The notes under the pieces were generated by a model. The model made no database searches. It was not told the origin of the DNA and worked only from the letters and a program-made list of their open reading frames with translations. From positions 62,001-126,000 of the forward strand of contig NZ_FNJL01000003.1 of NCBI RefSeq assembly GCF_900104515.1: a stretch of 64,000 bases of DNA, read 5' to 3'. Positions 3,476 through 43,071 of this stretch are shown one piece after another. The translations under genes were made by a program, and so were the position numbers. The DNA comes from Paracidovorax cattleyae. Its GTDB lineage: Bacteria; Pseudomonadota; Gammaproteobacteria; Burkholderiales; Burkholderiaceae_C. Numbering within the stretch: position 1 is the stretch's first letter; every line of letters starts with the position of its first letter.

Positions 3476-4750
<1,275 letters not shown>

Positions 4751-4774
4751 GTTGCTGCGCCGACGGTGGCGGCG

Positions 4775-5609
4775 TTACGCGGGCCGGGCTTCGGCCCGCA
4801 GCGCCACCGCCAGCCGCTCCATGTCTGATTCGCGGGTTTGGAGGGCTGGCGCCACCGTCAACACGCCGTACCTGTCGCGCAGCAGCGCCGCGAAGGCATT
4901 CGCCTGGGCCGCCGTGGCCATGCCCGGCTACTTGGTGCCATGATCTGCATTCCCGGCAGCTTGCGCGCTTGCACCACCCACAGGTCGCGCAGGTGGCGCA
5001 ACCTAGTCGGCGTGCCGATCTGGCGGTGCAGGCGCAGCGCCTCGGCAGCGCATCCATGGCGTACTGCGCAGAGTCGTAATCCAGGTCCGCATAGAGCACC
5101 GTGTCGCCAAGCGACAGCCGTAAGTAGTTGATGATGAGCAGCTGCAGCGCCTCGGTAGCGCCGCGCGTGAGCGCCACTTCGGCCACATCGAACCCCGCCG
5201 CCGCGGCCACGGCCTCGCGCGCCGCTCGCCAGTCGGGCCCCATGCGGTTGCGCGCGTAATCGGTGTTCTCGCGGTTCACACGCAACGTCCACCGCAAATA
5301 TTCCTCCAGCACCGGCCGCGCCATCACGCCCCAGTAGCCATTCTCCAGGTTGGACAGACGGGTATCGATGTCGTACAGGCTTCGCACGGCCTCGCAGCGC
5401 GCTGTGTCGGTGGCCACCGAACCACGGGGAGTCGGGAGTTCGGCCCAATCGGTCGCCCGGTCTACGGCAAGGCAGTCAAAAGACGAGTAAGCCTGCGGGG
5501 CAGCGTGGGTTGGGGCGGCGAGAGTAGCGGTGCTCCAGGCCAGCAACGGCGCGGCGGCAGCGGAGCCCAGGAAATGGCGACGATGGGGATAGTGGGATGG
5601 CTCAGACAT
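4775..5609 (-). pseudogene. Decayed class V aminotransferase (isopenicillin N epimerase-like) with Tat signal
   Basis: The first about 190 codons read as a PLP-dependent class V aminotransferase with a twin-arginine signal (HRRHFLGSAAAAPLLAW) and the family stretch LSNLENGYWGVMARPVLEEY. Soon after YAMDALPRR the frame is lost. Further on, a second frame reads GTPTRLRHLRDLWVVQARKL, and a third (shift near 4935) reads AALLRDRYGVLTVAPALQTR to a TAA at 4775, which is the normal C-terminal tail of this family. The full enzyme is about 430 residues; only about 278 codons' worth of DNA remains, so a central piece including the expected PLP-lysine region is missing in addition to frameshifts. No intact product can be made. 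Confidence 0.8.
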
Positions 5610-5721
5610 GGCTGGGCGAATGGAACAAAGGACACATCGCACTAGACCATTAAAACGCATCGGCCAAACAGCGCGCAGGCAGGGTTATGCCTATGTCATG
5701 TGACAGAGGGCATCCCCGCTC

Positions 5722-5800
5722 GCAGGTGGCTGTCCACGGCAGAGGCACCGCTACCGTGCGCAGCCAGATCGCGTCGGTGCCATCCATCTCGCCGCGGCCG
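5722..5800 (-). pseudogene. Short rhs gene remnant
   Basis: On the minus strand this stretch reads GEMDGTDAIWLRTVAVPLP, which parallels [19 protein letters not shown] in the intact RHS protein encoded at 6465-11159. At DNA level the 33 bases starting at 5761 match the corresponding bases at 7219 at 28 of 33 positions. It therefore looks like a leftover of a displaced or partly deleted rhs copy. The rest of the 5610-6081 intergenic region is A+T-richer than its surroundings and holds no gene I can support. Confidence 0.65.
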
Positions 5801-6081: not shown

Positions 6082-6459
6082 TTAATCAATCTCCAGATTT
6101 ATATTGAAATCAACGAGAATTCTCAACATATCCAATCCTATTTTCTCCCCTCCCGAAACCAGCGTGCAGTAGAGAGTTTTCTTCAGATCCGGTTTTGCAA
6201 AGAAATTTGCCGAATCTTCAGGCATGGCAATCAAATTATTTTTCAACAGGCCTATCGCCCCGTCAATGCTTTCGTCCGGGCATTCAATTTTCAATGAAAG
6301 GTACGATTCTTCATAATTACCTCCCAGCAAGGCTCCCTGAACAGTTTTCCGTTCAGCACCAGCAGCCCAGATTCTCGCGATCGGCAGTTTAATATCAGAT
6401 GCGAGTTTTTCAAGATCACAAGATTCGTGCTTAATTTGAAGGCTAATTTTACTTGGCAT
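6082..6459 (-). CDS. Probable immunity protein of the RHS toxin (DUF4279-like)
   Basis: A 125-residue acidic, cytoplasmic-looking protein beginning 5 bp after the RHS stop codon, the usual position of a toxin's cognate immunity gene. Its pattern (N-terminal beta strand SLQIKHES, then IARIWAAGAERKT, then a helix GAIGLLKNNLIAM and C-terminal LDMLRILVDFNINLEID) resembles DUF4279 proteins, which are often found as immunity proteins beside polymorphic toxins. The family match is by eye and tentative. Codon use is A+T-rich like the 3' part of the RHS gene, so the two probably travelled together. The inferred job is binding and neutralising the RHS C-terminal toxin. Confidence 0.65.
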   Translation of the reverse strand: MPSKISLQIKHESCDLEKLASDIKLPIARIWAAGAERKTVQGALLGGNYEESYLSLKIECPDESIDGAIGLLKNNLIAMPEDSANFFAKPDLKKTLYCTLVSGGEKIGLDMLRILVDFNINLEID

Positions 6460-6464
6460 AATAT

Positions 6465-9400
6465 TTAGCGGCAGAGGCCGGTAGGACGATTTGTAAACTG
6501 ATCTGCAGGGCCATGATTGACTGCGCGACCATTCCGACCGCTTGTAACAACATCGCCGTTAGGAGCAATGCCAGTCCAGTCACGTGCCCCAGCCCCCACT
6601 CCGTCTTTAATATCATGGACATCACCCCGTCCAATTCCCATCTGATCTATCGGCTTGGTGCCTGCAGGTGCATCCACAGGCCTGGATTCATTGCCAGGCT
6701 TTGCAAACATGCGATCCAGCCCGTACCCCAATGTACCCAGACCAATGCCGATGGCAATGTCCGCGCCAGAAATAACAGCTGGGACAAATGGAATCACCAT
6801 CGCAAACTCACCGGTTGGATCATAATACGAAGAAGGATTACCTTTCGCGTATAAAAACCTATTCCAACCACCCTCCAAGCCGATCGGATCGGCGTGTATA
6901 TACCTTCCCGTCGCAGGATCGTAGTACCGATGCAGGTTGTAGTTCAACCCTGTCTCTTCGTCCCACACCTGACCCGGATAACGCAGGTCGAACCGGACCG
7001 GTTCACTGTAATTTCGGCCGGTGCTTTCACCGCTTTGCGCATAGCCTGTGAATCCTGTGGTCGGGTTTGCCTCTCCGAAGCCGGTGGTGAGCCACTGCCA
7101 TACAACCTGACCTTGGGTGTTCGTCAGGCGGCGTGGGGTGTTCAGATGGTCTGCATCGATCGCGTACAGCCGACCGTTGATCTGCGCTGCCACGGGCAGC
7201 GGTCCTGACACAGTGGGCAGCCAGATCACTTCCGTGCTATCCATTTCGCCCGCCGGTGCACCGCTGTTGCTGCTGCGGCGATTGCCATACTGGCCCAGCA
7301 CCGTACTGCCGATACCGTCATCCGCATAAACCGTTTGCAGGGTGATCGCGCTATTGGCGTTCGTACCAGAGATGCGTGCGTCGCTCTTCAAGACCCGCTG
7401 GCCCAGGGCGTTGGTGATGTAGCCCACGGCCAGCGCATTCTGGGGATCGGAAGTCGCACCTGCCCTGGCGATGCGGCCATCAGCACCATAGTGCAGATAG
7501 CTATCGCCCTTCTTCGTGAGCGCCCCGGTGGCGTCCTGGGCATAGGTGACATCGGTGCGGCGCGCTGCGGCGCCTGCGGGCGTGAAGGTCTCGGTGTAGC
7601 CCTTGAGCCGATTGCTGCCCGGCACGGGTTGATAAACCCGCTCCAGCTTGGCCGTTCCTGCCCCGGCAACACTGCTGTGAAAGGATTGGGAACGGTTGCC
7701 ATTGGCATCCAGGGAGTAACCGCTAGAGGTAGCACCCACGGTGTCGCCCAGGCCCCAGCCCTTCGGCAGAGCAGCACTCGCGGGCAGGCTGTGGGCACTG
7801 CCGGTCAAGCGGCCCAGGGCGTCATATGTGAAAGCGCTCGACAGCAGCACCTGCTGCGCAGCACCGCCACTCGCGGCTGGCAGCATATGCTGCTGCTGGA
7901 GACCCGTGAGCCGGCCCGCGGCATCCCAATTCAACTGCGGCAGCACTCGGCTCGACGTCAACCGGCCCGCCACGCTATAGCTTCGCTGTTCTTTCAGGTT
8001 GCCGGCAGCCCAGGTCCAACCCGTAGGTTGCCCCATGGGATTCCAGGTGATTCCAGAGAGCAATATCTGGCCGTTCCATCGCAGCCCGACGAGTTGCCCG
8101 GTAGCGTCGTACTGGAACTGCAGGCGCCGTCCGCTGGGATAGGCGATGCTGGCGAGTGCCCCCGCACCGCCGCTGCCGGCCTCAACGTATGAATACCCCA
8201 CCGACCGGGTATCGCCACTCGAGGCAAGTATTTGCGTCTTGCCCATGATCCTGCCCATCACGTCATAACGGAAACGCGTGGTCACGCCTGGGTCCAGAAG
8301 CTCACTCAAGGCTCCGACACTTGCCTTGGGCGCGTTGTTGGCGTTGTATGTGGCCCCTGTCAGGTCATAGCGCAACACACTCTGCTTTCCGTCAGAAAAA
8401 AGCAGCCGCGTGGTCCTTCCCAAGGCATCCCTGCTGACCTTGGTTGTGCGAGCCAAGGCGTCCGTCCATTGAATGGCACGCCCCATTGCGTCGTATTGGA
8501 CATCCAGCGTACCGATGTCCGAGACCATTTCACGCGTGGGATTACCGCGAAGATCATTGGTATAAGTGGTGGCAACTCCAGCGTAATCAGTCGCGGACTT
8601 CATAACCCCCAGCCCATCGTACGCAAAGCTTGCTGTCTTCTTGTAGGGATCCGTGATCTTCGTGGTCAGACCGAATGCATTTCGGTCGTACTCATACCGC
8701 TGCTGAAGTGCATTGGTTTCGCTGGTCACTCTACCGTCAGGGTCGTAAGCATATATGTTTTTCTCGTTTCCAGACTGCACGCTTTCGAGCTGATTGAACG
8801 TGTTGTATTTCTTTTGTTCCAGCCACACGACCTTACCCGCAGCATCTTTAACCTCCGAGAGGAGCACATTATTGAAGCCATCATAGGCATATCTTCCCGA
8901 GCCACCGCGGTTATCGCGCCAGGTAGAAAGCCTGTGCGCATCATCATAAAAATAATCGACATAATATCCCGAAGGTTCTGATTTTCGCGATATTTTTCCT
9001 ATTTGATTATATTGATAATTCCACGACAAGCCAGAAGAGGATACCTGCGTTACAAGGCGGCGAGGATCGGCACCACTAACGATGTCATATGAAACATCAT
9101 TTGGGCGACGCATGTAGGAAAGATAACCATCCTGGTAATAATAGGAAGTTGTATGCCCAAGAGGATTTTGCACCTCCAGAGGTTTTGGTCCGAATGGATA
9201 TCCGTAATTGTAGATCGTCTTGGCCCCATTGAAATCCGAAGACGAAACCAAGCGCCAACCATCATACTCCCAGGTTCGTACCAATGCTTTGGACGCACCA
9301 TCCGCCTGTGCCGCATCATAGAGCCGTTCACTGGTCAAATTACCGTAAGCATCATAGTCGTATTCAGTGACCCTGCTTCCGTCCTTGATCCTAATAGGAC

Positions 9401-11159
9401 GCCGGAAAACCAAATGCCAGTCCGTACTTACCGCCCTTTCATCTGCACTGCCTGCAGCGTGTGTCACCTTGACAGGCAATTTCCGTTGTTCATTCCAATC
9501 ATAGATATTTCTACGGCCAGCAAAAGATTGCTCCGTTGAGACCAAGCCGGCGGAATTCACGGTTCGTGTAGCTACTGGGTCATAGGCCAAGGCAGGAACT
9601 GCCGAAGCTGTTGTAATAACCATGCTGCCATCTTGACGTGCAAAGCCGAACTCCCGCCGCTGACCTTGAGCATCCTTTACGAGCGCTTTTCCAGAAGCGA
9701 TATTGGAATAATCGAACTCATACGCCAAGACATCACCAGCATGAGCAGCTTTCAGTGTGCGGCCTTGGTCGTCATAGTTGAAACTCGCATACCGCTTACC
9801 ATCTTCATCGATGAGGCCCGTCAACAGCAACGGGTATTTTGAATTTTCATAGACATATTTCTTCGTGTAACTTCCACCGTAGGAAACAGCGCTCAGGCTG
9901 AAGCTCTCAGCGCTAATCCCTGCATACGAGTAGGAAATTATCGATCCGTCCGGCCGATTCATACGTTCGACGAAACGACCGCCGTTCCTTTCGAAAGTGA
10001 TGCTTCTGCCAAAATGATTCCGGATGCCCGTCAATGCAGCACCGAAATATTCATACGAAACGATCCATCCATTCCTATAGCGGCGCTCCAGCAGCTTGCC
10101 TGCGCTGTCAAACTTGAACTTCGAATCATCTTCGGCATATTTAACGTTCCAAAAACCAGAAGCCTGGCTCATGGAGTCCCCCGGCTGCTTGGCGACCCAC
10201 TCTCCTGCCGGGTTTCGGTTGAATTCGCGCTCAAAACCATTACCAAAAACCATGGTGGCAACACCACCAGTCACATTCAAGACAATGGCATGATTATGAC
10301 TCCATTGAGACCCCCACCCATGATTCGGCCGGACAGAGCCCAAAGCCCAGTGATTGCGATAAATGCGAATAAAATCCAGCCCTGATTTTTGCGGATCAAT
10401 AAAATCGGCCTGTTCTTGAAAATTCTCTCCGGTGGCAGGAACCACAGGGTCACCCATACACATTCCGTCCTGGGGGCCTGGGAACGAAGAAACCGGAGCA
10501 GTTCGATCTCCGTCAGGAGAGGGTGGCGGTGGTGCAGGCGGCCCCGGGGGCGGTGGAGGTGGAGGTGGAGGTGGAGGTGGAGGTGGAGGTGGAGGTGGAG
10601 GTGGAGGTGGAGGTGGAGGTGGAGGTGGAGGTGGAGGTGGGGGTGGCGGCGGAGGGGGTGGAGGAGGGGGCGGCGGATCGAGCAGCCACTTGTCAGCACA
10701 CCAGCCGCTTACGGGATCTCTGAGATAGGGATTCTCCGGGCCATTGCTGGGAGGGGGACAAACGCAGTCGTCAGGCCCTTTTCCGTTGTCATATGCCCAA
10801 CGGCTAAATACCCAGCGGGATTCATTCCCCACATACAAAGGATGATTGTTTTCTTTTTTATTGCAAACCCCCAAAATCATGTAAGGGTTGTCCGCATATT
10901 CATTTTCATTCTGTGGACAACGGTCTCCCGCAGGGATGCACAATTGCTGCGATGGAACGACTGCACAATATTTCATCCTTTGCCGCAGGATAGGCTCGAG
11001 CGCAGAACAAACACCACTGGGCTCCGATGAAAGCGGAGTATGGTACACATCTTCCGAAACATAGCCAAAAACCGGACCTCTGACGGGATATTCTGCGTGA
11101 GCGACAGAAATTATACCAAGCCAGCACCATACCCCGAACACTCTTTTTGACCCGAACAT
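6465..11159 (-). CDS. Secreted RHS/YD-repeat protein with polyproline tract and variable C-terminal toxin
   Basis: A 1,564-residue protein. Start 11159 has a GGAGGG site 4 nt upstream; an in-frame ATG at 11180 lies before that site. Residues 1-22 form a Sec signal ([12 protein letters not shown], cleavage before E23). Residues 162-205 are 44 consecutive prolines. DUF6531-like entry follows ([18 protein letters not shown]), then many YD repeats ([24 protein letters not shown]), and the RHS core end [20 protein letters not shown]. The last 114 residues are unlike the core: a hydrophobic stretch, then [19 protein letters not shown], the probable toxin tip. No PAAR or other T6SS adaptor is seen, so export by Sec is more likely than by T6SS. 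Base composition is A+T-richer than flanking genes, suggesting transfer. Confidence 0.9.
10552..10640 (+). repeat. Perfect hexanucleotide repeat (GGTGGA)n inside the rhs gene
   Basis: The six-base unit GGTGGA runs without a mismatch for 89 bases, almost 15 copies, flanked by degenerate G-rich continuation on both sides. On the coding (minus) strand it is alternating CCT and CCA proline codons and makes most of the 44-proline tract. Six-base slippage keeps frame, so the tract can lengthen or shorten by two prolines at a time. The G-rich strand could also form quadruplexes. Confidence 0.95.
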
Positions 11160-11435
11160 TTTCCCTCCAATTAAATTCAATGATTTATTAATATAATTTA
11201 ATAATTATTAATACAACCTAAAAACAACCATCCCCGATTGAAAATTCTCCAAAGTCCAACCATCGCCCTCTTCCAACGACTGGCTGGATGCTAATAAACA
11301 GGCTACGGCTTGAAACCCCAGTTTGCGCTTTGCCCTCAATAAATATTAACGCTAAATCTTGACAGTAGTTAAGTCAATACGCATCTAGACCTCAAGAAGA
11401 AAACTATCGACCCACACACACCGATTGCCTCGTTT
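11160..11435 (-). promoter_or_regulatory. A+T-rich upstream region of the rhs gene
   Basis: 276 bases without a gene. The part next to the rhs start (11170-11216) is almost pure A+T; on the minus strand TTGTAT (11216-11211) is followed after 17 bases by TATTAA, a plausible but weak sigma70-type pair. Further upstream lies an inverted repeat TTGAC-N9-GTCAA (11359-11377), a possible operator. Composition suggests this is the left boundary of the acquired segment. Confidence 0.4.
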
Positions 11436-42861: not shown

Positions 42862-42937
42862 TCCTCGATAGCTCAGTCGGTAGAGCGCCGGACTGTTAAT
42901 CCGTAGGTCCCTGGTTCGAGCCCAGGTCGAGGAGCCA
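42862..42937 (+). tRNA. tRNA-Asn (anticodon GTT), first copy
   Basis: 76 bases including an encoded CCA. Acceptor arms TCCTCGA / TCGAGGA pair perfectly, the D-arm has AGCTCAGTCGGTAGAGC, the anticodon loop is CTGTTAA with anticodon GTT, and the T-loop is GGTTCGAGCCC. The sequence closely follows E. coli tRNA-Asn. Confidence 0.97.
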
Positions 42938-42995
42938 AGAAGTTTTTGCAGCGGGCACTGCAACCGGACAAGGCCCGCTTGATTCGAAAAGTCAT

Positions 42996-43071
42996 TCCTC
43001 GATAGCTCAGTCGGTAGAGCGCCGGACTGTTAATCCGTAGGTCCCTGGTTCGAGCCCAGGTCGAGGAGCCA
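42996..43071 (+). tRNA. tRNA-Asn (anticodon GTT), second copy
   Basis: Identical over all 76 bases to the first copy and separated from it by 58 bases, so both come from one precursor transcript. CCA is encoded. A terminator follows directly. Confidence 0.97.

Follow-up and report, generated by a model that had tools for sequence, protein, structure and literature searches.

A probable RHS toxin-immunity pair, apparently of Sec type, with an uncatalogued C-terminal tip in Paracidovorax cattleyae

In a stretch of 64,000 nucleotides from Paracidovorax cattleyae (assembly GCF_900104515.1, contig NZ_FNJL01000003.1, positions 62,001 to 126,000; this whole stretch is called the window below), a large RHS protein gene ends in a variable tip and is adjoined by a small gene. 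Do these two genes form a toxin and its antidote, and what kind of toxin would the tip be? The current work argues with good confidence for a polymorphic toxin-immunity locus, in which the RHS tip acts as the toxin and a DUF4279-like partner as the antidote. The architecture of the RHS gene, the joint exchange of tip and partner, the linkage of the pair and the purifying selection on both genes are seen directly in the compared sequences. The delivery class and the general RHS design are already known; the tip family is uncatalogued in the libraries searched. The elements of the locus, with coordinates in the window, are as follows.

6465-11159, minus strand: RHS protein gene, 1564 amino acids from the ATG at 11159, or 1571 if the upstream TTG at 11180 is used
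11094-11159, minus strand: signal-peptide-like N-terminus, residues 1-22, judged by eye and similar in the congener allele L083
10677-11093, minus strand: N-terminal domain, residues 23-161, with 8 cysteines and no Pfam match
10545-10676, minus strand: run of 44 prolines, residues 162-205, a short-unit repeat
10248-10454, minus strand: DUF6531 (PF20148), by Pfam
6870-6890, minus strand: RHS core end motif DPIGLEG, residues 1424-1430, by sequence and NCBIfam Rhs_assc_core
6705-6812, minus strand: hydrophobic, glycine-rich linker, residues 1450-1485 (36 amino acids), found with other tips elsewhere
6468-6704, minus strand: C-terminal toxin-like tip, residues 1486-1564 (79 amino acids)
6082-6459, minus strand: DUF4279-like partner, presumed immunity protein, 125 amino acids, 5 bases from the RHS stop
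5729-5793, minus strand: RHS core remnant of 65 bases behind the partner, 74% identical to 7186-7250

The RHS frame carries the repeats and the conserved core end of an RHS polymorphic toxin. In Pfam, RHS_repeat was matched at 2.2e-35 and DUF6531 at 30.2 bits (cut-off 24.1), and the RHS model reached 25.6 bits, below its cut-off of 27.9; NCBIfam gave the YD repeat and Rhs_assc_core. An earlier note, made from the letters of this DNA alone, had named the DUF6531 entry, the YD repeats and the DPIGLEG core end, had placed a 125-residue gene 5 bp behind the RHS gene, and had denied a PAAR or type VI secretion head. All of these were confirmed, the last by the absence of any PAAR match in Pfam at E up to 1, which is characteristic of the Sec-exported class. 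By eye, the first 22 residues ([22 protein letters not shown], EYP being next) resemble a Sec signal peptide, with KR, a hydrophobic run and AHA before the EYP. Hydrophobic, signal-like N-termini are seen by eye in the five tip carriers with their start in view (the window, L083, L006, L017 and L059), and L059 has no ATG ahead of its signal-like segment. Of the 11 cysteines of the protein, 9 fall within residues 51-234; of the other two, one belongs to the signal-like segment and one is close to the C-terminus. The proline run counts 44 residues in the window and 20 in the L083 allele, implying that the length of the tract changes. The whole RHS and partner proteins found no match in PADLOC.

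The earlier note had called the last 114 residues divergent. The variable part after the core is not a single domain of that length but has two parts, the linker of 36 residues and the tip of 79; a similar linker with a different tip is present in a Variovorax fragment (L015) and in a member of the same family (L003). In an alignment of 10 tip rows (A3; some rows are partial, and L017 and L019 stand outside it), 14 columns are at least 90% conserved, mainly [11 protein letters not shown]; the corresponding segment reads SWTGVAPDGTV in L017 and [11 protein letters not shown] in L019. In the predicted structure of the window's tip, DVHDIK lies in a helix ahead of three strands. The profile searches that the earlier note proposed gave a divided answer, as the partner family was found to be DUF4279-like and the tip has no significant match in any library searched (Pfam, NCBIfam, PHROGs, and PDB by sequence and by fold). 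The best PDB rows for the tip are at chance level (E 0.11 by sequence, 1.4 by fold), as is its single row in PHROGs (E 0.16).

The pairing of the tip with a DUF4279-like partner is well supported by sequence comparison. A partner profile (A5) was built from nine partners found by their position behind tips, with the window's own partner excluded, and was searched, with E up to 0.05, through 6017 open frames of 50 residues or more from 91 sources, the window included (607,039 bases, some overlapping). It matched solely frames directly behind this tip, at 14 of the 15 distinct loci; at the fifteenth, L010, the contig ends 75 bases past the tip stop. Nine of the 14 matched partners had built the profile, and the other five (the window, L083, L017, L019 and L059) did not contribute to it. 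Behind 13 other RHS C-terminal ends in the same set (five in L058 and one each in L060, L061, L062, L063, L065, L066, L003 and L081, those of L060 and L081 being alike by eye), no neighbour of this type was found.

The link to DUF4279 (PF14106) is graded. In Pfam, 7 of the 10 partners in alignment A4 match at E up to 1, the best at 2.6e-9. The partners of L005 (31.2 bits) and L059 (27.6) exceed the curated cut-off of 25 bits, and those of L011 (23.3), L019 (14.4) and L007 (13.0) score below it. The window's copy is below Pfam detection; its homology to the partners that do match was established by profile (E 1e-11 against A5) and by hhalign (probability 97.2%). An AlphaFold2 model of the partner is confident (pLDDT, the predicted local distance difference test, 92.9) and of alpha+beta type. 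It has no close neighbour in PDB (best E 0.43 by sequence, 0.019 by fold), and PHROGs returned one chance-level row for a relative's partner (E 0.034).

Exchange of the tip was observed at the chromosomal site itself. Among 16 congeners, the 10 with a strong match to the acylase neighbour were compared on the RHS side, alignments of 60 bases or fewer being omitted. At this site, G992 (L083) has the same RHS protein, tip and partner, at 92.9% identity over 4686 bases. G994 (L081, 4942-9711) has an RHS protein in a frame of 1589 residues whose core is 76.6% identical to that of the window, and which differs in the signal-like N-terminus, the N-terminal domain, the tip and the small neighbour gene, a frame of 134 residues without a Pfam match. 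The tip has thus been swapped behind a conserved core and the small downstream gene along with it, within one genus and at a single site. In four congeners (G988, G987, G989 and G991; L082, L084, L085 and L086) the acylase borders, without any insert, on window sequence that reaches to about 4750-4774; in G990 (L087) there are fragments of the aminotransferase-like gene beside the pair and no RHS sequence; and G993, G984 and G088 (L088-L090) align through the acylase alone, which is uninformative either way on the insert. G003 (L058), a member of the same family, holds an array of RHS core fragments within 20 kb, in which similar cores are followed by at least five different tips. Four of these tips have a small open frame at once behind and one has such a frame 61 bases on, all different by eye. 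The comparison of tips between strains suggested in the earlier note supports its reading. The 65-base remnant behind the window's partner is probably the scar of an older cassette. The array in L058 is also a toxin repertoire as yet unexplored.

Both genes are maintained as proteins. The ratio of nonsynonymous to synonymous substitution rates (dN/dS), computed on the single allele pair of the window and L083, is 0.042 for the tip (79 codons), 0.154 for the linker (36), 0.091 for the partner (125), 0.131 for the body and core (1214) and 0.123 for the N-terminal part (160). These values are far below 1, indicating that tip and partner are under purifying selection. In L011, L012 and L013, moreover, the tip is disrupted or not in frame with any RHS core, yet the partner frame next to it stays open, which is what an antidote role of the partner would predict.

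Tip and partner are found together in bacteria that are only distantly related. Counting the window and L083, the tip was found at 15 distinct loci, which from their record titles we take to belong to Pseudomonadota, Acidobacteriota, Verrucomicrobiota and Spirochaetota, several being metagenome bins. A scan of a genome collection yielded 11 loci, 10 with the tip (L005-L014) and one (L015) that shares the linker only. The tip is present on one Photobacterium plasmid (L017), in 2 of 398 genomes of the phylum (the window's own and L019, of the same class) and in 4 of 197 genomes of the family of Dyella, three of them already known (L006, L012, L013) and one new (L029/L059). Within the family to which the window belongs, the count is 3 of 200 genomes, namely that of the window and two weak, partial cases (L003, linker only, and L004). 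Nine of the 15 tips stand in frame behind an RHS core end; four are broken or lack an in-frame core nearby (L011, L012, L013, L019), for L010 the sequence in view contains no core, and the contig start truncates L014. Viral contigs and phage records gave no relative of the tip. Among plasmid records, the window's tip found nothing as query, relatives' tips found the Photobacterium record, and a search with one partner found nothing. The open-licence literature matches listed on DUF4279, Ntox33 and Sec-type Rhs proteins contain no description of the tip. On the Photobacterium plasmid, a second RHS core fragment lies behind the tip-partner pair, from about 9479.

The earlier note had also regarded the locus as A+T-rich and horizontally acquired. 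The first was borne out: G+C content is 46-65% along the RHS gene in 300-base steps and 41.5% in the partner (41% at third codon positions, GC3), against 73% in the acylase neighbour (GC3 87%). GC3 of the RHS gene ranges from 40 to 76% along its length and peaks in the repeat region, residues 1001-1400, as would be expected of a mosaic. Horizontal acquisition is supported by this low G+C content, by the four empty sites among the 10 congeners and by the patchy RHS core, which at E 1e-20 is present in 10 of 90 family genomes, the window's among them. A repeat search revealed no obvious insertion-sequence ends.

A working model can be drawn from these observations. The RHS protein would be made with a Sec signal and leave the cytoplasm, and its YD-repeat shell would carry the C-terminal tip until release near DPIGLEG, as tips of other RHS proteins are released near the core end site. 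The 79-residue tip may then enter a neighbouring bacterium and harm it, most likely as a small nuclease of Ntox33 type. The DUF4279-like partner would stay in the producer's cytoplasm, bind the tip and protect the producer and its sisters; by eye it has no signal peptide, which fits a cytoplasmic antidote. Tip and partner travel as one cassette that displaces other pairs behind the conserved core, an exchange visible in the comparison of congeners.

Several points weigh against the toxin-immunity interpretation. Toxicity, the activity of the tip, its neutralisation by the partner and secretion are inferred only. The fold model of the tip is of moderate quality (pLDDT 78.1), with no PDB neighbour below E 1.4, and Pfam DUF4279 does not match the partners of the window, L083 and L017. 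The asymmetry between broken tips and open partners comes from three draft assemblies, one a metagenome bin, in which sequencing errors may account for the frameshifts. The passage of so large a Sec substrate across the outer membrane is a question, and it extends to the entry of such large proteins into rivals, a problem that the Sec-exported RHS class raises for Gram-negatives in general.

The identity of the tip is a narrower matter. That it is a divergent Ntox33 ribonuclease (RNase), with DUF4279 as the standing immunity family of Ntox33, has a little short of an even chance. In Zhang et al. 2012 (PMC3482391), Ntox33 is a predicted RNase of alpha+beta fold with the motifs [DN]xHxxK and DxxxD, exported by the type II secretion system (T2SS) and listed there with no assigned immunity protein. 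The first motif and the fold agree with the helix and strands predicted around DVHDIK in the window, and the sizes are alike (65 positions in the model PF15533, about 75 residues here). In a 2026 paper (PMC13304343), moreover, a DUF4279 gene is reported directly behind a PAAR-Rhs-Ntox33 gene of Salmonella, and another paper is cited there for DUF4279 as an immunity protein; Ntox33 is also named in a Morganella survey (PMC13129497). Against this identity, the Ntox33 model gave no match, with E up to 10, in the eight tips scanned (window, L005, L007, L009, L010, L017, L019, L059), and its genome search up to E 10 reached only places away from tips, with a loose first pass that could miss weak ones. 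The motif [DN]xHxxK is strict in 5 of 10 tips, the window's included, and DxxxD occurs in 3 of 10, at differing places and not in the window. Ntox33 members were found in 0 of 398 and 0 of 194 sampled genomes, in neither of which a positive control matched, and a search with PF15604 (Ntox15) gave nothing over its cut-off. Kinship to Ntox33 is likely but unproven, and by this weak kinship the activity would most likely be that of an RNase.

Alternatively, the tip may found a toxin family in its own right, about 75 residues long, with a distinct activity and an antidote of the DUF4279 type; such a family would span at least four phyla and so far be missing from Pfam and NCBIfam. This is a tentative proposal, held at rather less than an even chance. 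The family would be marked by its conserved [10 protein letters not shown] segment, and it differs from Ntox33 in the absence of a hidden Markov model match and of a conserved DxxxD. If it is a separate family, DUF4279 proteins would serve small RHS tips in general as antidotes.

It is possible, though rather unlikely, that the tip is a toxin of non-RNase activity, acting for example on DNA, a nucleotide or a membrane. None of the family or fold searches gave a significant match from which an activity could be read, and the hydrophobic linker might work at membranes. On the other side, the pairing with DUF4279 and the presence of HxxK point to Ntox33, and the linker, being common to unrelated tips, is probably not the toxic part.

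Many of the Gram-negative RHS toxins that have been studied are type VI effectors, which lends something to the idea of a type VI effector here, or else of a surface adhesin, whose tip is merely its structural end. That idea is improbable, given the missing PAAR match and the signal-like N-termini of the five tip carriers, and one would not expect a structural end to be swapped jointly with a neighbour gene. A decayed relic, which the core remnant and a shortened aminotransferase-like gene next to the pair might suggest, is very improbable, given that both frames are intact and that the dN/dS values of tip, core and partner all lie far below 1.

Among described systems, the toxin-immunity pair proposed here most resembles the Sec/T2SS-type RHS toxins as given in Table 1 of PMC3482391, in its RHS repeats, its variable C-terminal, presumably toxic end, its linked presumed immunity gene and its spare cassettes, and in a signal-like N-terminus where those toxins have a signal peptide. 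It differs from that description in its tip without a library match, its run of 44 prolines and its cysteine-rich N-terminal domain without a Pfam match. The Salmonella SPI-19 PAAR-Rhs-Ntox33/DUF4279 system described in PMC13304343 is likewise a two-gene unit with the RHS gene ahead of a DUF4279 gene, but it has a PAAR/type VI head where the window has a Sec-like signal. The locus offers a testable toxin-antidote pair for a tip that the searched libraries do not list, and it gives some DUF4279 proteins, which so far have no known function, a likely role.

Two further features of the window may be mentioned. A class V aminotransferase-like gene (4680-5660, by Pfam) lies beside the RHS pair and is shorter than the 469-residue frame of L083, about 430 bases of L083 being absent from the window. 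Far from the RHS locus, two tandem tRNA-Asn genes are located at 42862-43071.

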